Assembly (NCBI GenBank): GCA_024220525.1
Contig: JAMYWO010000176.1
Span: 36,664-86,942, forward strand
Origin: Cochliopodium minus
Taxonomy: Eukaryota; Discosea; Himatismenida; Cochliopodiidae
Length of the DNA: 50,279 bases
Direction of reading: 5' to 3'
Under the pieces are notes generated by a model. The model made no database searches, was not told the origin of the DNA, and saw only the letters and a list, made by a program, of their open reading frames with translations. This document shows, piece by piece, positions 7,927 to 39,829 of the stretch. How positions within the stretch are numbered: position 1 is the first letter of the stretch; the number at the start of each line of letters is the position of its first letter. The position numbers were made by a program, and so were the translations under genes.

Positions 7927-8087
7927 TTTTTTTTTTATTTTTTAATTTTTTTTCATTTTCAAAGAAATTTGATAATTTTTTATTGTTATTTTTTAATTCA
8001 TAGATTATTTTTCATTTATAAGACTTGAATGGGGAAAAATAATTGACATAAAAGGATTATTTTTGATCTCTTTTTATTTTCAAGGAA

Positions 8088-8665
8088 TTTTTATATATTA
8101 ATTAATACAATAGGAAAAAAGATGGAGAGATAATCCTTCTCACTTGATCCATCAAATCTCAGATTGAAAATCATTCCTGTTTGAATGATTTTGTCTTTGA
8201 GATTTTCATGTGATTTGAAATCAAATAAAAGTTTTGAGTCATTGCTGATTTTACATTCTTTGTTTTCGACAACCAAAACATTTTTGTCAGTGAAAATTTC
8301 AATCTCAACTTTTTGATTGAGATAGGTGTTGGTGATTTGAAAAGTAAAATTTTGATTCTTTTGGATCAACAAGAGTTTTCTTTTGGAAGATTCCTTGTTA
8401 TTTGGATAGAACAGTCCGTTTTTGAGATCCAAATGAAGAAAATCGTCGAAAAAAGAGTTGTTGTTGATTTGGATTGAAAAGTTGAAAAAAGAAAAGTTGA
8501 TTTTTTCTTTCTTATTATCTTCGAGAGACAAAGAAGAAAGATCGATTTGCGAAAAAGTGTGTTTGAGATACATCAAAAGAAGTTTGATGTAGTTTGGTTT
8601 TGAAGAAACAATTCCATTTTCATCGTACAAATAAAAAGATCCTCCAAGATTTTTGAAGAGAGAAG
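8088..8665 (-). repeat. Inverted identical block, copy A
   Basis: The 3' end of paralog A, including the stop codon and about three bases after it, is the reverse complement of 16124-16701 without a mismatch or gap in my reading. Coordinates pair as x and 24789 minus x. Identity stops abruptly at both ends: the coding sequence just upstream and the 3' flank just downstream differ at once. Confidence 0.85.
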
Positions 8666-11600
8666 CGATGACATAAAGAATAAAGTTTGTTTTTTTGTTG
8701 TTGATTTTGTTAAAACTTGTGTTTGTCTTAGAAAGAGTAGTGGAAACACCAAGAACATCAGAAGAAGTGGACAAAAGTTTGGAGAGACCCTCCAAATTTA
8801 CACTTTGTTGTGAGTTGGTAGTTTTATTCCCAGAATAAACTCCATCACTTTGGCTTTGAGAGGGGGCATTAGTTTTTTTAACAACAGTATTTGGATCGTT
8901 TTTTTCAACAGGCATTTTGGGGGTTACCACCGAACCAGACTCTTTCTTTGGCTGTATAAGTTTTTGAGGCTGCAGAGGTTGTTGGAGAGGTTGTTGATGA
9001 GGATAAGGAGGTTGTACGCCATAAGGAGGATTAAGAACATTCTGTTGTTGGGGTTGCTGAGGATTGTTAGGCTGTTCGTACATTTGTTGAGAAAAACCTC
9101 TTTGAACGTAATTTCCAGATTGAGGAAGATTGTTAGATTGAGGAGGCATGTAGTTTGTGGGAGCAAAGAAAGGATTATTTTGTTGCGGTTGTTGTGGAGT
9201 AGGCAAGGCGTTATTTCTTGGAGAATTAGTTTGTTCTTTACCCTTATTATCTATCCTGTTTGTTGGAGCTATATTAGTTGGAGCTACATTGGTTGGAGCT
9301 ACATTGGTTGGAGCTATAATGGTTGGTACCTTCTTGTCAGTATTTGCAGTAGAAGAATAAGTGCTCCTCTTATAAATTGGTGCTTTGTTAGTTGGTGCAA
9401 ATACCTTTTTGGTAAGATTTACGGGTGCTTGCATTGAAGATGGTTCTGGCTCAATTGAATCATTGTCTATTATTGGATTTGGATTATTATTTGGATTATT
9501 GTTTTGGTTATTTTGATTGTTCAAGTTTATAAGATTATTGTTATTTCCGTTATTATTTCCTCCTGGAGGATTATTTTTGAGAAACTCAAGATCCAATCCT
9601 TCCAGATAATTAGAAGTAGATCCACCAGAAGAAGTAAAATGGCCATCACTAGAAAAGGATCCATGAGAAGAAGAACTGTCGGAATAAACAAATTTCCCGC
9701 TACCCCCAGTATCGCTGCTTCTAATTGATCCCCCACTGCTTCCACTATTATTATTGTTCTGGTCGAAATTTCCAAAGCCAATACCAACACCAGAACCTGT
9801 ACATGTTTGAGGGGAAGGAGGGTTAGGTTTTTCAGTTTCGCTTTTATTTTTTGGAACAGGTTTGGTGGTAGTTTCTGTTTGGAGATTAACTGATTCATCT
9901 TCATCTTTGAGATCTATCTCTGTATCACAATCACTTTTGCTGTCAATTTCTGAATTCTCACATTCAGAAGAATTGACAAGATCAAATAAACTCTTCTCGT
10001 CACTTTCACTCTTTTGAATTTTATCCTTTCCAAAAAGTATTTCGTAAACACCTGAAGGTTTATTGATAGTAGGACTAATTCGAGTAAGAATAGGAGAAGA
10101 AAATTGATCTGAATTGGAATTGGCAATCTGTTGATTAAACAAGTCTGTGTTACCTGTGTAAACATTTAATTGAGGAGCTTGATAACCTTGAGAAGGTGGT
10201 GGTGGTGGTGATGGTGGAATGTTACTATTTTCTTGATAAGAAGGTTGGACATTTGGAAAATAAGGAGTATTAAAACTTTGAGGAGGTGGAGGAATGTTAG
10301 TGTTTCCTTGATTAGGAGGTAGAACATTCGAAAAATGAGGAAGAGGAGGAGGACCAAATCCGAATGATGGAGGGGGAGGTGGGCAATTTGAAAAAGGAGG
10401 AAGAGGAGGTCTGTTGTGATAGAAATCTGTTTGAGGAGGTGGAGGAACATATATTGTAGAAGGAAAGTAGTTTCTTTGTATTTGATGTTGGTTTTGGGTA
10501 AAACTTGGAAAGCTCGTGTTTTGAAGAGAAGTAAGAGATGAAGAGTTTGGTGGATTGTTTGAGAGAAATTGGGAATTTGAAGAATTGTTGAAATCTACCA
10601 AAATCAAGTTTGTGAAGCTGTCATCAACAAAATCCTTTTGTTTATTAGAATGAGAGGGAAATGTTTCTGTTCTTTCGTAGAGATCATCTTGATTCATGCC
10701 CACAAAAGGAAAGTTGAAAGGATAGTCATCATTTTCGGGAGAAAAGATGAGAGGAGAATTAGGAAACGATCCAGATTCGCTTTTGCTGTCTTTTTGTGAA
10801 CAAGTATCCTCCGAAGAATGGTTGGGAAACATGCTCTCGCTGAAAAAATTGAGCTCATTGGGTGATAATTCGTTGAAATTGAGGAGATAATTCGAAACTT
10901 CATCTTCCTTATTCCCTATCAACTCATTATTTTTATTTGTTACATTATTATTAATATTAAGATTATTTATGTTATGATCATTTATATTATTATTATTATA
11001 AAGATAATCAAAATTTGTATCATCATTGCTTATTGGTTGTGTTAATTGTTCTTCATAGATGTTTTTTTGGTTTATAAAGTAGTTTTGGAATACATTGTCG
11101 TTGAAGAAGTTTACAATGGGTATGGAGTTTCCATTCTTCTCTATTCTGTTTGTCATATTCTCTGTAATTGGAGGGTTAACTCTTCTCCTTTTATCACTAT
11201 TAGTTTCTATTTCTACATATGAATTTTCATTTCTGAAAATATTGGGAGCTCTAAATTTTTTTAAAAATAAAAATTATATTAAACAAAATAAAAATGATAG
11301 GATTACTTTGTTTCGAAAATTAAATCATTGTGTTTTTCGAGATAAACTACATCATATATCAGAAATATGTTGAACACTTTTTCGAATTCCCCTCCATTGT
11401 GAAATTCTGTTAATGGAATTAAGTTTGTATGTGCAGATCCTTTGCTCATCACTCTACAGAAAGAATTATTAAAAACATTAAATTTATAATTTTATTTTTA
11501 ATATTTTAAAAAGAAGAAATGTTCAATTTATTTTTTACTTTTTAAGTTTTGCGAAATCATTTGGATTGTTTTTGGATGTATATACAAGAAGCTTTTTCTT

Positions 11601-12097
11601 TTTCCTCGCTTTATCAAGTCTTGGTTTGAATTTGGGTGATATTTCGTTTGGAAATGATTTCTTGATACTGATAATTATTTAATAAAAAAAAAAAAACAAT
11701 TATTATCGGAAAGATGTGATTATCAATACCTATTTGAATCGAAATACAAGAATCTTCTTGGTAATTCTATTGTATTACTGTTTCCCCTCCATAATAGATA
11801 AAAATTATCTGCTTCATTTATTCTAAATAGTACATCTGTATTGAAATTAAATATTTAATATGACAGTTCTGTATCTTTATGATCTCATTATAATTTATTT
11901 TGGTTCATTATATTTCTTTTCTTTTTTTATTTTATTTTTTCTCCTCAATTTTTATTACCTCTTTGAAGCTGATATATTTCGTTTTGAGGCAAGATATCCA
12001 ATTGATAGTATCCTTGGAAGGAGGGAATACATACACATAAATTATTTATTATCTTATTTTCAGTTGTTTGATTGAATTCTCGCTTTTTATTGAACAT
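8091..12097 (-). CDS. Unknown low-complexity protein, paralog A
   Basis: Five exons: 12097-11959, 11835-11730, 11667-11539, 11453-11307 and 11250-8091; total 3681 nt, 1226 aa. I do not recognise the family. Residues 1-174 (exons 1-4) form a compact conserved part (QLDILPQNE, PKFKPRLDKAR, SKGSAHTNLIPLTEF, VYLEKHNDL). A basic KRRRVNPP stretch follows that could act as a nuclear signal. The middle is low complexity: Asn-rich, Ser-rich acidic patches, proline runs, Gln-rich tracts and four APTN repeats in a row (about 9256-9320). The last ~190 residues are a folded-looking alpha/beta region ending in FFPIVLINI. The gene is head-to-head with paralog B (13337-16698). Exons 1-4 have exactly the same lengths in both (139, 106, 129, 147 nt) and the last 578 nt are identical. 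Function is unknown; a nuclear regulatory role is only an inference from composition. Confidence 0.8.
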
Positions 12098-13336
12098 AAT
12101 TATTCTAATTTCAAAATGATTCCAAATAAACTATATTGAAATGGATTGATGAGAAAAATTTGGTCAGATTTTATTTTTTGTAATTTTTTTATTTTTATAT
12201 ATTCACTAAATATCTCACATTAATCCAAGCTTTTAGCAGATCTTCAACAAAATATCTCATTTCAACACTTTATTGAACTATCAATAAACATCAATCCATT
12301 TGTAAACTAATTTATTATTTTGCATTTCATATAAACATAATTCTTTGATTTTTTCATTCACTTTTAATTCATCAAATATCAAAGGTTTGTTCGATCAAAA
12401 ACATTAAAAAGTCCTAATAAACATTTTGAATATCAATTTTCGGATCTTGACAAGATTATTTTTTTTTTTTTTAAATCAATTTTTTAGTTTTCAACAATAA
12501 ATGTTTTTTTTTTTTTTTTGATTGTTTTGAAAAGAATTTGGTACCATTTTTAACCACAAGTTTATTGACTTTAAAAGTTTAAATTCAACTTGATTACATT
12601 TTTAATGTGATAATGATTTGAGGTTTGTGAAAGGGTAATCAATATCTAATGAATGATAATTCATTTCTTAAAAAATAATTCTTTAATTATTTTAATTTTT
12701 TTAAATTTTTTTTTGATTTAAGAATGAAAATTAATAATTTACAATTTTCCATCGGACAAAAAACATTTTCGGTAAGAAACTTAAATTCAATCATTGTGAA
12801 ATTTTAAAGATTCATATTGGATTCAAAATTGGTTAAAAATTGTTTTTTTTTGAATGGATCTTAAAATTTTTTATAGATTCTAATTAAATTTTAATTTTAA
12901 AGAAAATTAGCACTTATAGAAATTATCATCAAAATTTTTGAGGACCAATTTGACAAAATTTATCCGCTTTGAACTTTATTTAATTAATTTTTTATTTAAA
13001 CTTTGGGATTAATTTTTTAAAATGGAGTGAATATACTTTGACCTAAAATTATTCAAATTTCTTAACCAAATACTGTTCACTTTTGTTTTTTTACTTGAAA
13101 TTTGCTCACAGGAAAATTTAATAAATAAATTAATATATTTTTTTTATTATTTTTTTATTTAATTTATTATTTTTTTTAATTTAATTTGGAGCAAATTTGG
13201 TGCTAAAAAGCTTGGTTAATTGAGGAAGGTTCCATGATCAATTTAAAAATACTAAAAAAAAGGAGAGACCAACATATTTTCCAACATTCTAACTCAGTTT
13301 AGTTTTTAAAAAGATCAATTATTTGTTTTTCCATAT
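12098..13336. other. Intergenic region between the divergent paralogs
   Basis: This 1.24-kb stretch lies between the start codons of the head-to-head pair. It is strongly AT-rich with T and A runs, and I see no open frame or RNA gene. By position it must hold the 5' ends and promoters of both genes; no specific element could be assigned. Confidence 0.6.
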
Positions 13337-16300
13337 ATGAGCAATAAAAAGAGAGAATACAATCAAATCAGTGAAAATAAAATCATAAATAATTTATGTA
13401 TATGTATACCTTCCTTCAAAGGATACTATCAATTGGATATCTTACCTCAAAACGAAACATATCAGCTACATAAAGGCAAGAATAAAAAATATATATAAAT
13501 AAAAAAAAATATAATTAACAAAATATAAAAAGATTACTTCATATTCCAATTCATAAGGGATGAATAATCATTTCACGTTCAAATTATTAATTTATCCTCA
13601 ATTAATCACAAAAAAATTAAAAGATGTACCATATCAAATCAGTGAAAAAGATAATTTGTATCTCTTGTGGAAAGGAAAGAAAAAAACAATTGAATTACCA
13701 CAAAAATTCTTGTATTTCGATTCCAATAGGTAAAAAAAAAAAAATTTTAAAGATTTCTTCGTTTATCGGAATAATGTTTTTTTTTAAACAAATTATCAGT
13801 ATCAAGAAATCATTTCCAAAAGATGTATCACCCAAATTCAAACCAAGACTTGACAAAGCGAGGAAAACCAAAAAACTTCTTGTATATACATCCAAAAACA
13901 ATCCAAATGATTTCGCAAAACTTAAAAAGTAAAATTATCAGCGCTTTTCATTGATTTGTTGATTATTTTTTCTTTAAAAATTTAAATTTTATAATTTTAA
14001 ATTTAAATTTTTTTTTGGAAGGTTGATGAGCAAAGGATCTGCGCATACAAACTTGATACCATTGACTGAATTTTACAGTGAAGGAAAATTCGAAAAGGTG
14101 TTCAATGTCTTCGAAATAAATGATGTAATTTATCTCGAGAAACACAGTGATTTAGTATTTGAAACAAAGTAATTTAAAAAATTTTGCATTATAACATTTG
14201 AACAATTTTTTATTATTATTTTAATTTTTAATTTTATTATTAATTTAATTCTAATTTTTTTTAAATTATCAATTTTAATTTTCAATTTAATTTTTTTTTC
14301 TTTTTATAGAGCTCCTACTGTTTTCAGAAAAGAAAATTCTTGCATAGAAATTGAAACTAAGAGTGAAAAGAAAAGAAAAATCAACCCTCCAAATACTGAA
14401 AACAAAACCACCAACAAAATAGTCGAAAAAAATGTGAACACTGCACCTGTAGTAAGTTTTTTCAGCGAAACCATTCTCGAAAATTTTGAAAACACTGTAT
14501 TCGATCAATTAACACAACCCCTGTTCAATACAAGCTACGAAACAAACACTTTCGGAAATATGGAAGATGATATTTCAAATTACATTTTCGATTTCAACGA
14601 ATTGTCACACAACGAACTCAGTTTTTTCAGCGAAAACATTTTACCCAATAACTCACCGGAGGATTCTACATCACTTAGAGAAAAGAGCGAGTCTGACTCT
14701 TTTTCTAACTCTCCTATTTTTTCTTCTGAAAATGAGGATAACCCTTTCTTCTTTCCTTTCATCAACGTTTACCAAGATGATCTCTACGAGAGAAGTGAGA
14801 TTTTCCCCTTAATAAATGACATTCCAAAAGATCTCGTTAATTACACCACCCAAAACACTGTTTTGGGTGATTTGAGTTCTTCAAACGCACCACCCAATTA
14901 TATCAATTCTATAAATCCTAATGCTTTAACAACATCAACTGCTCCCAGTACCTCACAAAATATTTCTTCTATTTCTCCCCTTAAACCAAACGATTTTCTT
15001 TCATTAACACAAAGTACTTCTCATCCCCCAACACCAGAAAGAGATATATTTTTCCCACCCCCAATGTTTAAAAAAGAAAATATATCTCCTCCTTTTGATG
15101 AAATAGGCCCTCCCCCTCCTCTTGATAGAAATTCTAAGCCTTCTCCTTTGCCATCACCATTACCTCCTCCTCGACCTCCTCTTCAAATAACCAATGAAAA
15201 TTCAGTTGCAATTCACAGTTCTCCCCTCCCACTTCAAAGAGAAACTAACAGTCTTGCCTCTCCTTCTCTAAGTGAACACTCCTTTAAAACTGTTCCAAAG
15301 AAAGATCCTCTTTTTTCTTCTCAATCTTCAAATTCAAGAAATCCAGAAATCAAAATAATTGAGATTAGTCTTGGTGATGATTTCGATTCTGAGAGTAAAT
15401 TCGCTAGCGATTCCGCTGGAGACATGGGAGAAGCTAGCCAATCTGCCAGCCAATCTGCATCTTCTGTTGAATCACAAGGTGGGATAACTGATCCAAAAGT
15501 AAATCCGTCACATAAACTTCCCATTGAAACTCAATCTGAAAATGTTCCAAAAGATCAACAAGAAAGTTCTTCTGTAAAAAAAACTTCTCCCATAAAACAT
15601 GAAAGAATCAGCGGAGATAACGTAATTATTCCCTCCTCGAATGATATCAAGGGGAGTCATGGAAACAGTTCAACCACAAGGAATACTACTAAGAGCGGAA
15701 ATTTACTCCAACAATCCACATCTCAATCTCAATATCAACCTCCCAAACAACATTTTTTGAAAGAATCTCCTTCTAAGCCACTTCAAGAGCCCTTCCAAAA
15801 TCAAAATGCTTTTAAAAATTTTCCAAACAAAACAAATAATCATTTCAAAAATTTTAACAGTGATCCTTCTCCCAAACATACGTCTTCTACAAAACAAACA
15901 CAGGAGACTGGAATGCTTTCCAAACACCGCATATCTCCCTATAACACTTCTTCAAAACCAGGAGATGACAATGTTTATTTGGAGGGTCTCACTAAACTTT
16001 TGTCCACTTCTTCTACTCAAATGGATATTCTAGGCGTTTCTTCCTCTCTTTCAAAACAATCGGAAAATGATGAAATAATCACCAACAACAACAAAAAGCC
16101 CAATTTTTTTCTTTGTATAATCACTTCTCTCTTCAAAAATCTTGGAGGATCTTTTTATTTGTACGATGAAAATGGAATTGTTTCTTCAAAACCAAACTAC
16201 ATCAAACTTCTTTTGATGTATCTCAAACACACTTTTTCGCAAATCGATCTTTCTTCTTTGTCTCTCGAAGATAATAAGAAAGAAAAAATCAACTTTTCTT

Positions 16301-16698
16301 TTTTCAACTTTTCAATCCAAATCAACAACAACTCTTTTTTCGACGATTTTCTTCATTTGGATCTCAAAAACGGACTGTTCTATCCAAATAACAAGGAATC
16401 TTCCAAAAGAAAACTCTTGTTGATCCAAAAGAATCAAAATTTTACTTTTCAAATCACCAACACCTATCTCAATCAAAAAGTTGAGATTGAAATTTTCACT
16501 GACAAAAATGTTTTGGTTGTCGAAAACAAAGAATGTAAAATCAGCAATGACTCAAAACTTTTATTTGATTTCAAATCACATGAAAATCTCAAAGACAAAA
16601 TCATTCAAACAGGAATGATTTTCAATCTGAGATTTGATGGATCAAGTGAGAAGGATTATCTCTCCATCTTTTTTCCTATTGTATTAATTAATATATAA
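13337..16698 (+). CDS. Unknown low-complexity protein, paralog B
   Basis: Five exons: 13337-13475, 13624-13729, 13800-13928, 14022-14168 and 14310-16698; total 2910 nt, 969 aa. The architecture is that of paralog A (8091-12097): a conserved ~174-residue start, a basic KKRKINPP stretch, a long disordered middle (Ser/Pro-rich, PPPPL runs, an SQSASQSAS patch) and a C-terminal block of ~190 residues identical to A. The middle is far shorter and has diverged strongly. The exon 1 donor is GC (AAAG then GCAAGA), where paralog A uses GTAATA at the homologous site. The start was chosen because MSNKKREYNQ aligns with MFNKKREFNQ of A and every later phase closes. The long last exon reads open upstream of its first ATG (14434), so that ATG is not the start. 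Function unknown. Confidence 0.82.
13476..13623 (+). other. GC-AG intron in paralog B
   Basis: The donor is AAAG|GCAAGA and the acceptor AAAAG. Paralog A has AGAG|GTAATA at the same codon, which fixes the boundary: both join in phase 1 to give Asp-Val. It therefore looks like a GT to GC change after the duplication, or the reverse. Confidence 0.75.
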
Positions 16699-16701
16699 AA
16701 A
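16124..16701 (+). repeat. Inverted identical block, copy B
   Basis: Partner of 8088-8665. It codes for the last ~191 residues of paralog B. Synonymous sites are as identical as the others, which selection on protein alone does not explain. Confidence 0.85.
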
Positions 16702-34715: not shown

Positions 34716-36788
34716 TTAATAAGAATACTTGATAATGATGTGTTGAAGAGGTTTGGGCAGTCTCAAATTGTTCGAAAGAAAAATTTTGGAAATTTTCAAA
34801 CACAACAGAAAAGAGAGAGTACTTTGTTTGAAGCTTTTATCAGTGTTTTTATGTTCACTTGTTGACCATTCCTTTCACATTTATAAATTAGAAAGAAAAT
34901 TGCATTTTAAAATCCAAAATAATATTGTTTTGAAAAGAAAAATTTAAAAATTACCATAAAGAGTTGATAGTTTTGAACTAATTTTAAACTATCAAATTCT
35001 AATTTGGTAGGAGAAATTCTTGGTTCTCCATCTCCTAATCCTAATTGTCCGCACATTCCTGATCCACAAACAAATATTTCCTTTTCCTCTTTTATTTTTC
35101 AAAAATAAATCAAGAAAAAATTTGAAAATTTAATTATTTTTGAAATCAAATGAAATATTTAAAAGAAATGACTTTAAAAATGTAATAAATGTTAAAAATT
35201 AATTAAAATGAATCTAAAATTATTACTGTTGACAAAAATGGAATGGTACAATCCAGTTGAAACGAAAGATATGTTTTCAAGATTTAGTTTAACAAAACCA
35301 TAAGAGTTAACTTTACTTCCCAATCCGAGTTGACCGTATTCATTATGACCAGTCACATAAAGTTCTCCCTTTCCTTCAAAAATTTATATTTAATTAAAAA
35401 TAATTAACAAAAAAAGTATTCATAAACAATTAATAATTTTTTAATATTATAAATTTAAAAAAATTCAAATGAATATTTAAAATGGAATAAAATTTTTTTA
35501 CTTGTCAAAATAAATGTTTGTTGAGATCCACAATGAATGGATGAAATGTCAGGAAACTGGTCAATAGTGTGCATTTCAAAGTTTTTTTCAGTTTCGCTCA
35601 CAAAACCTAATTGTCCTTTGCTATTTAGTCCAAAGCATCTCAAAATAGTTTTTCCCATTTCATTTTCTATTTCAAAAATAATTTATTTATAAAATGATTA
35701 ATAACAATATTTATTGGAATTATTTTAAATTTTTTATTTTGAAATTTTACTTGTCAAAATGTAAGAATGATCAACCCCACAACAAACAGAAATGATGTTT
35801 TTATCGGATATAAGCAGTTTAGGTTCGTTTATGGTTTTGATTTTTTCGGAAAATCCACATTGGCCATCTTCATTCGATCCCATCACCCAAACTTCTCCAT
35901 TATCTACAAAAAAAAAGACAATTTAAATTATTAATAAAAAAAAAAGTTCAGAAAACAACAAATAAATGAATAAAATTCGATAAACCTTTCAAAAATAAGC
36001 AATGCTTTAGCCCACAAGAAAAAGAAATGACATCTTCAATGGGTATTTCTTTGAAAGAAAGTTTTAAAAAGTTTAATGAAGCCCACGTACCATTAAAATA
36101 GATCTTCCCATCAACTTTCCAATAAAAATAAATAAAAATAATTCATGAAAAAAATTTTAAAATAAAAGAAAATTAATGAAATTACCTTTTTGTAAGAATG
36201 TAATATGTGTAGATGTACAAACTTTTTTTACATCGCTACAAATAAATGTAAAACTTTGGAAACTTTTATCTGTAATCCCTAATTGCATTTCTTCATTCAT
36301 TCCTAATTTATTTCACGAAATCAAAAGTTAATTTTTATACCTTCAAAAAAAGCTAAAAAAAGAATTACCACATCCATACAAATCTCCATTTTCTGTTTTA
36401 AAAATTTACAAAAAATTAATAAAATTGATGAGAAAGAATAATTAAAAATATAATTTAAAAATAAATCAAAAAATCATGAATTTCTTAAATTTAATTTAAA
36501 AATAAAATATTTTCGTTGTTTTACTTTCTAAATAAAATGATTGAGAATGTCCCAAAATGATTGATTTGATGTTTGGATTGTTCATTATTTTGGTTGGTTT
36601 CATTATATCATCTATGTCTCTAGTCCCACATTGTCCATGATTGTTATAACCAAACGAATAAACATCTCCATTTTCTATTTAATTTATTTAATAAAACAAT
36701 TTAAATTTTATTTAAAAATTATTCTTTTCTATGAACCTTTCGTAAAGATGTTGTGATGAGAAAAACAAGAACTTGATTCGATTATCAT
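34716..36788 (-). CDS. RCC1-repeat protein, tandem copy 1
   Basis: Exon order matches the neighbour copy at 37113-39336: a short first exon (MIIESSSCFSHHN), then about eight blade exons, then a C-terminal helix-like exon. Blades are visible as NGDVYSFGYNNHGQCG, GEVWVMGSNEDGQCG, TILRCFGLNSKGQLG, GELYVTGHNEYGQLG and EIFVCGSGMCGQLGLGDGEP. RCC1 repeats build a beta-propeller, used either as a Ran exchange factor or for other binding; nothing here decides. The last exon (EWSTSEHKNTDKSFKQ and on to LPKPLQHIIIKYSY) is shared only with copy 2. Nearly every blade lies on its own exon with phase-1 borders, which would allow blade-by-blade duplication. The copy is whole in my reading. Confidence 0.82.
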
Positions 36789-37112
36789 TTCTTTATTTTA
36801 AACAGTTTTGCTAATATAAATAATTAAATTCAATCAATTAAATTTTATAAACGAAAAAATAAAATAAAATATAAATATCCACAAAAAAATTTGAGATAAT
36901 CCCAATCATAAATGGATAGATAGATTCAAATTATAATTTCTTAAATTTTAAATTATTTAAATATTGTTTATTCAAAAATATTTGAGCACAAAAAATTTTA
37001 TTCTCTTTTTGAATTGATTGTTATATAATACCTTTTTTATGAATCTATTCGAATTTTCTGATTCTTTATCAATCAAAATTTAATCTCAATTTTTTTTTAT
37101 TTATTTTTTATT

Positions 37113-39336
37113 TCAAAAATGAGAATAAGAATACTTGATAATTATGTGTTGAAGAGGTTTGGGAACTCTTATTTTTTTCAAAAGGAAAGTTTTGGAAATT
37201 TTCATGCACAACAGAAAAGAGAGAGTGCTTTGTTTGAAGCTTTTATCAGTGTTTTTATGTTCACTTGTCGACCATTCCTTTCACATTTATAAATTAAAAA
37301 GAAAATTTCATTTTAAAATGTAAAATAATATTGTTTTGAAAAGAAAAATTTAAAAATTACCGTAAAGAGTTGATAGTTTTGAACTAATTTTAAACTATCA
37401 AATTCTAATTTGGTAGGAGAAATTCTTGGTTCTCCATCTCCTAATCCTAATTGTCCGCACATTCCTGATCCACAAACAAATATTTCCTTTTCCTCTTTTA
37501 TTTTTCAAAAATAAATCAAGAAAAAATTTGAAAATTTAATTATTTTTGAAATCAAATGAAATATTTAAAAGAAATGACTTTAAAAATGTAATAAATGTTA
37601 AAAATTAATTAAAATGAATCTAAAATTATTACTGTTGACAAAAATAGAATGGTACAATCCAGTCGAAACAAAAGATATGTTTTCAAGATTTAGTTTAACA
37701 AAACCATAAGAGTTAAATTTACTTCCCAATCCAAGCTGGCCGAATTCATTATGACCAGTCACATAAAGTTCTCCATTTCCTTCAAAAATTTATTTAATTA
37801 AAAATAATTAACAAAAAAAGTGTTCATAAACAATTAATAATTTTTTAATATTATAAATTTATGAAAATTAAATTAAAAATTGAAAATTAATATTTTTTTT
37901 ACTTGTCAAAATAAATGTTTGTTGAGCTCCACAATGAATGGATGAAATGTCAGGAAACTTATCAATAGTGTGCATTTCAAAGTTTTTTTCAGTTTCACTC
38001 ACAAAACCTAATTGTCCTTTGCTATTTTGTCCAAAGCATCTCAAAATAGTTTTTCCCATTTCATTTTCTATTTCAAAAATAATTAATAAAATAATTATTA
38101 AAAAATGTTTCTTAAAAAAGATAAATATTAATTATTTTTAATTTTTAATTTTAAACTATTTTTTTTATTTTGAATTTTTTTTTGAAATTTTTTATTTTGA
38201 AATTTTACTTGTCAAAATGTAAGAATGATCAACCCCACAACAAACAGAAATGATGTTTTTATCGGTTATAAGTAGTTTGGGTTCTTTTATGATTTTGATT
38301 TTTTCAGAAAGTCCACATTGGCCATCTTCATTTGATCCCATCACCCAAACCTCTCCATTATCTACAAAAAAAAAAGACAATTTAAATTATTAATAAAAAA
38401 AAAAGGTTCAGAAAACAACAAATAAAATGAATAAAATTCGATAAACCTTTCAAAAATAAGCAATGTTCATTCCCACAAGAAAAAGAAATAACATCTTCAA
38501 TGTATATTTCTTTGAAAGAGAGATTCAAAAAGTTTAATGAAGCCCAAGTACCATTAAAATAGATCTTCCCATCAACTTTCCAATAAAAATAATTCATGAA
38601 AATAAATAAATTAAACAATAATAAAATTTAAATAAAAGAAAATTAATAAAATTACCTTTTTGTAAGAATGTAAGACTTGTAGATGCACAAACTTTTTTTA
38701 CATCGCTACAAATAAATGTAAAGCTAAGAATTTCATCTGTAATTCCTAATTGATGTTGATCGTTCGTTCCTAATTAAATTTATTATTTTTAATTTTCATT
38801 ATTTTTTAATCTTTCAAAGAATATTTACCACATCCATACAAATCTCCATTTTCTTTTTTAAATTTTACAAAAAAATAAAAATTAAAACAATGAAACGAGA
38901 AAAAAATTAGCAAATGAGAAATAAAATAATAAATATTTGATCAATAAAAATGTAATAATAAATTAAAAATTAAAAAATCAAATAAATTAAAAAATATTAA
39001 CCAAAAAAATCAAAATTAAAATCGCAAACTCATTATAAAAATAAATAATAAAAAAAAAAATTTGTTGTTTTACTTTCTAAATAAAAAGAATGAGAATCTC
39101 CCAAAACTATTGATTTGATATTTGGGTTGTTCATTATTTTGGTTGGTTTCATTATTTGTCTGGTTTTTCTATCACCACATTGTCCCCTGTCGTTATAACC
39201 AAACGAATAAACATCTCCATTTTCTATTTAATTTATTTAATAAACAATTTAAATTTGATTTAAAAATTATTCTTTTATTTGAACCTTTCATGAAGATATT
39301 GTGATGAGAAAAACAAGAACTTGATTCGATTATCAT
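37113..39336 (-). CDS. RCC1-repeat protein, tandem copy 2
   Basis: Ten exons: 39336-39285, 39223-39074, 38852-38829, 38769-38656, 38575-38447, 38361-38209, 38067-37903, 37779-37633, 37494-37361 and 37277-37113; 1233 nt, 410 aa, all phases closed. Inner exons have phase-1 borders and each carries a blade or half blade (NGDVYSFGYNDRGQCG, GTNDQHQLGI, VDGKIYFNGTW, NGEVWVMGSNEDGQCG, TILRCFGQNSKGQLG, NGELYVTGHNEFGQLG, EIFVCGSGMCGQLG). The C-terminus is longer than in copy 1 by a few residues (KYSYSHF). It stands 324 bp upstream of copy 1 on the same strand, and introns are also conserved, so the duplication is recent. Confidence 0.85.
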
Positions 39337-39829
39337 TTCTTAATTTTAAATTTTAAACAGTTTTGTTAATACAATAAATTAAATTCATTTTTATTTTTAT
39401 TTTATAAAGGAATATATAAATATCTTCCAACAAAAAATTTGATTAATGAATGGATAGATTTAAATTCTTATTCAAAAATTTTTGAATATTGAACAATTAA
39501 AATTTATTTCTTCAATTTTCTTGAGAAAATAAATATTAAATTCTCCTTTTGATTGATGAATAATTACCTCTTTTTTTTTGATGAATCTAGATTCTATTCG
39601 AATTATTAATCTCAAGAAATTATCTCTAATTTTTTTTATTTTAATTTTTATTTTTTTTATTTTATTTTTTATTTCAAATAGAAAATAATTTTACCCGAGA
39701 AGATACAAAATACAAATAGTCGACAATTTTAAAAAAATTCACAAAGATAATTATTGTTCATTTTTAATATGAAGAAAAAAAAAAAGAAAAAAGAAATGTC
39801 ATTTAACAAAACGAAACAAATTTAAAAAA
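39337..39829. other. Intergenic, nothing recognised
   Basis: About 490 bp of AT-rich spacer with T and A runs, upstream of RCC1 copy 2 and downstream of the RING/TRAF-like gene. No open frame or RNA structure stood out. Confidence 0.5.

Follow-up and report, generated by a model that had tools for sequence, protein, structure and literature searches.

Two head-to-head paralogs, gene A and gene B, end in a 578-bp block that reads as base-identical in both copies in the window, the 50,279-nucleotide stretch of DNA analysed here (C176:36664-86942; GC 26%). The block has most likely been homogenised by ectopic gene conversion between inverted neighbours, with the exactness of the identity resting on the assembly. 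Conversion would account for the identity of the silent sites, for the end of the block just past the stop codon and for its position in an otherwise diverged gene. The case for it was built on one genome, searched as 44.65 Mb in 598 contigs.

Structure of the gene pair

Exon models of the two genes were predicted from both strands of the interval that separates the arms of the block. On these models, gene A and gene B are head-to-head paralogs with five exons each, the last of which is closed by the block (Table 1). Exons 1-4 of both genes lie between the arms, at 11307-12097 on the reverse strand and 13337-14168 on the forward strand. A preliminary description of the locus, made before these four additional exons per gene were found, had therefore given the genes too small an extent. 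The lengths of exons 1-4 are equal in the two genes (139, 106, 129 and 147), and the predicted intron borders are GT-AG, with the sole exception of one GC donor in gene B. The frames are open throughout, giving predicted proteins of 1226 aa (gene A) and 969 aa (gene B). The introns, which are short and rich in T, indicate together with actin a eukaryotic source.

Table 1. Positions of the block, its surroundings, the predicted exons of both genes, and the single Ns with a 77-bp flank found elsewhere (positions are those of the window unless a contig is named)
Feature	Position	Strand	Remarks
Putatively homogenised block, arm A	8088..8665	-	last 190 codons, two bases and stop of gene A, and three further bases
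Putatively homogenised block, arm B	16124..16701	+	last 190 codons, two bases and stop of gene B, and three further bases
Moderately similar stretch, arm A	8666..8802	-	upstream of block, pairs with 15972-16123
Moderately similar stretch, arm B	15972..16123	+	upstream of block
Gene A, predicted exon 1	11959..12097	-	exon reading
Gene A, predicted exon 2	11730..11835	-	exon reading
Gene A, predicted exon 3	11539..11667	-	122/129 bases same as gene B
Gene A, predicted exon 4	11307..11453	-	exon reading
Gene A, predicted exon 5	8091..11250	-	low-complexity N/P/Q/S-rich middle, then C-terminal domain
Gene B, predicted exon 1	13337..13475	+	following intron begins GC
Gene B, predicted exon 2	13624..13729	+	exon reading
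Gene B, predicted exon 3	13800..13928	+	exon reading and base identity
Gene B, predicted exon 4	14022..14168	+	exon reading
Gene B, predicted exon 5	14310..16698	+	reading frame and exon reading
Single N	C210:23344		77-bp flank common to block
Single Ns	C210:45946 and C210:47652		77-bp flank common to each other
Single N	C176:20847		77-bp flank common to C445

Across exons 1-4, 447/521 bases are identical between the genes and 74/521 (14%) differ, with per-exon identity ranging from 84/106 to 122/129 bases. Because these exons share their lengths and align, and because the introns of the pair are 54-71% alike, we read the two genes as an old inverted duplication, with arms spanning roughly 8.1-16.7 kb. 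The poorly aligning part is the middle of exon 5. The middles of the genes had been described as diverged beyond alignment, which holds approximately for this part of exon 5 but not for exons 1-4.

Along the diagonal x + y = 24789 the two arms of the block are reverse complements without a single mismatch for 578 bp, and 7,458 bp separate them. The same arms were recovered by a repeat search of the window, with a looser inner edge. The identical coding suffix comprises 575 nt including the stop codon, and three A's complete the block, which contains no intron. The preliminary description had given the same 578 bp and the same perfect identity, and its figure of about 191 codons is refined here to 190 whole codons and two bases. 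In the gap-free codon alignment the longest identical run was 572 nt, compared with a permutation maximum of 44 (n = 10,000). A genome search with the block returned both arms and, on contig C210, a single 77-bp piece.

Identity inside and outside the block

At the inner edge of the block the first mismatch is at 8666, and nine mismatches fall within 8666-8703. At the outer edge mismatches begin at 8087, and past the stop codon and the three A's the 3' flanks of the two arms differ at once, as had been described. A permissive blastn search gave weak, AT-rich matches between the 3' flanks (67-70% over 92-114 bp, E 1e-5 to 1e-8), lying off the block diagonal. We read these as composition, because similar matches join unrelated stretches in the same blastn run, although they might still be a remnant of homology between the flanks.

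Silent sites were compared at codons encoding the same residue in both proteins, with Met and Trp excluded. All 188 such codons in the block are identical, compared with 108/134 in exons 1-4, 57/87 in the first part of exon 5 and 71/132 in the middle of exon 5. The 41 codons directly upstream of the block contain 26 same-residue codons by this count, 19 of them identical. Similarity does fall upstream of the block, as the preliminary description had stated, but these 41 codons are moderately rather than only loosely similar. At the rate seen in exons 1-4, the chance of 188/188 would be about 2e-18, and a Fisher comparison gave 3e-11. The run of identical codons was 191 among 567 same-residue codons, with a maximum of 68 in 10,000 permutations.

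Estimates of silent divergence gave the same picture. In the block, dS was 0 over 115 silent sites, corresponding to a silent divergence of at most 2.6% (95% bound), and the sole difference counted across the 191-codon block region, a nonsynonymous one, falls in the first (boundary) codon. Values of dS were 0.41 in exons 1-4 (dN = 0.11), 0.57 in the 41 codons preceding the block, and 1.26 across all of exon 5 before the block, where the alignment is poor. The GC3 of the block was 0.344, compared with 0.25-0.30 elsewhere in the two genes; GC-biased conversion was considered and set aside, since this excess rests on too small a sample for claiming a bias.

The silent identity inside the block, the silent divergence outside it and the differing flanks support the gene conversion limited to the C-terminal block that had been proposed. 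An excess-identity tract that includes silent sites, within diverged paralogs, is the pattern of interlocus conversion. The pair also resembles the palindromic Amy type of concerted evolution, in which neighbouring inverted genes share a homogenised coding sequence but not their flanks; here the homogenisation covers a part of the coding sequence.

The events may be pictured as follows. An ancestral five-exon gene would have been duplicated long ago to give the inverted head-to-head pair, and the copies would then have diverged, without restraint in the introns and the low-complexity middle and at a slower pace in the N-terminal exons, where the protein was under selection. Not long ago, one gene would have received the 3' portion of exon 5 from the other through homologous repair between the inverted arms. 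The tract would end on its 3' side just past the stop codon, where clear homology ceases, and on its 5' side where similarity drops, and a few leftover differences may have been polished away by a short-read assembler. We infer repair-type recombination as the cause, its recency, and the sufficiency of one event.

Exon 3 was somewhat too similar between the genes, with silent identity at 36/38 codons compared with 70/93 in exons 1, 2 and 4 taken together (intron-split codons omitted). It could be an older, decayed conversion tract.

Assembly and other possible explanations of the block

The preliminary description had named assembly collapse as the main artefact to exclude. A de Bruijn graph with k = 77 could have merged similar but distinct C-terminal regions, or written one block twice, and we consider this unlikely as the source of the block, though with a chance that is not negligible. 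Ten single Ns were listed in the stretches of C176, C210 and C126 that were examined, and next to four of the ten the adjoining sequence recurs at another place over exactly 77 bp (Table 1). These four amount to three independent cases, one of which starts inside the block (C210:23345). For the N at C126:69179, one flank was searched and gave no other match. The other five Ns lie mostly in A/T arrays, and their flanks were compared within C176 and C210 only.

The 77-bp flanks suggest contigs from a short-read de Bruijn graph with k = 77, between which a scaffolder placed one N at each join, a signature that we take to be that of SPAdes and SSPACE. In agreement with this, the methods portion of a paper on an amoeba genome of similar GC and composition, perhaps not the present one, describes SPAdes and SSPACE applied to partly amplified DNA (PMC9198077), and bulge collapsing appears among the SPAdes pipeline steps in the corresponding part of its description (PMC6736328). 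In the amoeba assembly, long-read contigs were also supplied to SPAdes (PMC9198077), which would have aided repeat placement if the genome is the same. Since a k = 77 graph writes both arms from a shared edge, the exact identity of the block is not proven.

Other features of the locus argue against an origin of the block in the assembler. The window has its sole N at 2117, so that both arms and their immediate surroundings are free of Ns. Frame and homology are continuous across the 5' edge of the block. A single chimeric join was ruled out, because each arm exits into a different 3' flank. The N at 2117, a single N in an AAATA array, is most likely a scaffolder join.

Collapse was simulated with two copies carrying random differences, and a block was counted as perfect if every bulge was short enough (20,000 draws each). 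Bulge limits of 231 (three times k), 400 and 578 were used, difference-free draws were included and coverage was ignored. The simulated chance of a perfect block was 0.46 at 0.5% divergence, 0.20-0.21 at 1%, 0.026-0.044 at 2%, 0.003-0.009 at 3%, at most 0.00025 at 5%, and 0/20,000 at 10%. The signs of de Bruijn assembly with shared edges are thus present, but collapse does not make such a block from divergence at the level of the pair (14%). Collapse may have merged a few differences, and it is very unlikely to have hidden a divergence of 5%. Given these low odds and the 14% difference in exons 1-4, the block must be far more alike than the rest of the genes, even with part of its exactness owed to the assembler, and conversion stands as the best explanation. 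"Base-identical" is better taken as at least about 97-98% identical, pending read mapping.

A recent capture, in which one copy lost its C-terminus and gained the block of the other by partial duplication or cDNA-mediated insertion, is very improbable. The 3' edge of the block does coincide with the stop codon, and a relative on C126 has no detectable C-terminal domain, so that a family member may lack it. However, the in-frame homology in the 41 codons upstream of the edge indicates that the adjoining region was already in both copies; as for the donor, the intronless block makes cDNA indistinguishable from DNA. That purifying selection alone, at the protein or nucleotide level, kept the block identical is scarcely credible, even with a C-terminal domain present and intact in both copies, since synonymous choices agree at every compared codon of the block and at 54-81% of those in other gene parts, and the block has no second long frame that might hold silent sites fixed, its other stop-free stretches reaching 79 codons at most; that protein selection would not be enough had been argued from the identical silent sites, and the comparison bears this out.

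Related sequences and known systems

Ectopic conversion of the gene A/B block was considered alongside two further local gene pairs, chosen non-randomly, and exact runs over the expected length were present in all three pairs examined. The copies of a tandem gene pair at 34718-39350 of the window (RCC1-like by eye) match exactly over 283 bp (34957-35239 / 37363-37645) and again over 81 bp, and the remaining ungapped repeat families of this pair show 81-97% identity. A uniform divergence of 8% gave runs of at most 188 in 20,000 draws, compared with the 283 observed, and this pair is a second candidate conversion patch of the window. Actin-like tandem copies at C9:106001-111000, with a partial third copy between them, are 95% identical and contain exact runs of 337 and 211 bp. 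Here a uniform divergence of 5% gave runs of at most 256 in 20,000 draws, which only the 337-bp run clearly exceeds. The exact runs of both the RCC1-like and the actin-like pair could reflect conversion or assembler smoothing alike. The best PDB match of one actin was 4efh, an entry named Actin-1, presumably the Acanthamoeba actin.

A third member of the gene A/B family, the C126 relative, lies at about 67.5-69.2 kb (extent by eye) and matches the N-terminal exons, with 47% identity at query residues 52-170 and 43% at 13-47. In the surrounding 15 kb, the rest of genes A and B gave no match below E 0.02. On the other side of a single N lies a reading frame that looks SH2-like by eye. The C-terminal domain gave no genome match at E up to 10 beyond genes A and B and the piece on C210. 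The C126 relative, the only other family member found, shows no C-terminal domain against which the direction and date of the conversion could be polarised.

The piece on C210 (23344-23421) is an exact 77-bp copy of part of the block beside a single N, amid ankyrin-like (by eye) gene stretches. It is either a graph artefact or a third partial copy whose remainder falls in the sequence missing at the N. A longer C210 protein match beyond the 77 bp was rejected as chance, being a low-complexity array with stops.

The proteins of genes A and B matched no Pfam family above the cut-off, and a PDB search with them returned nothing convincing (best E 2.5 and 0.32). An AlphaFold model of the C-terminal 240 residues, made from a two-row alignment, had a mean pLDDT of 34.6, and its many strands were not taken as evidence. 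The conserved N-terminal part, long low-complexity middle and C-terminal domain would suit a regulator, which is a guess.

As far as the portions of the sources available describe them, the Drosophila Amy-p/Amy-d and Hsp70 pairs are close precedents of conversion between inverted neighbours. In Drosophila Amy, the coding sequence as such is homogenised, in several species, whereas here the last 190 codons only are affected in one genome and the remainder is strongly diverged. Caenorhabditis paralogs (hsp16, hsp70, fog-2/ftr-1) are likewise adjacent, inverted or tandem, and carry conversion tracts; in the excerpted account, C. elegans paralog tracts range over 12-2,958 bp and surviving tracts are mostly 50-200 bp (PMC3966223), so that the 578 bp found here is longer than usual and within the range. 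Palindromes of the mammalian Y and X undergo arm-to-arm conversion between inverted repeats (PMC3723533, PMC8981503), as is proposed here, although their arms stay >99% alike and most of the present arm is diverged.

It is quite improbable that the C-terminal domain is repeatedly re-homogenised, so that diverging regulator-like proteins keep a common surface, with the C210 fragment as a third dispersed donor copy. If true, this would be domain-targeted concerted evolution. In assemblies of such kind, exact identity is unsafe for dating conversion before read checks. The gene pair would be a new instance of the known conversion between inverted paralogs, distinguished by being sharply confined to a single domain. 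For an AT-rich protist it would provide a cleanly bounded case in which inverted paralogs of old origin were converted in part, accompanied by two further candidate patches.
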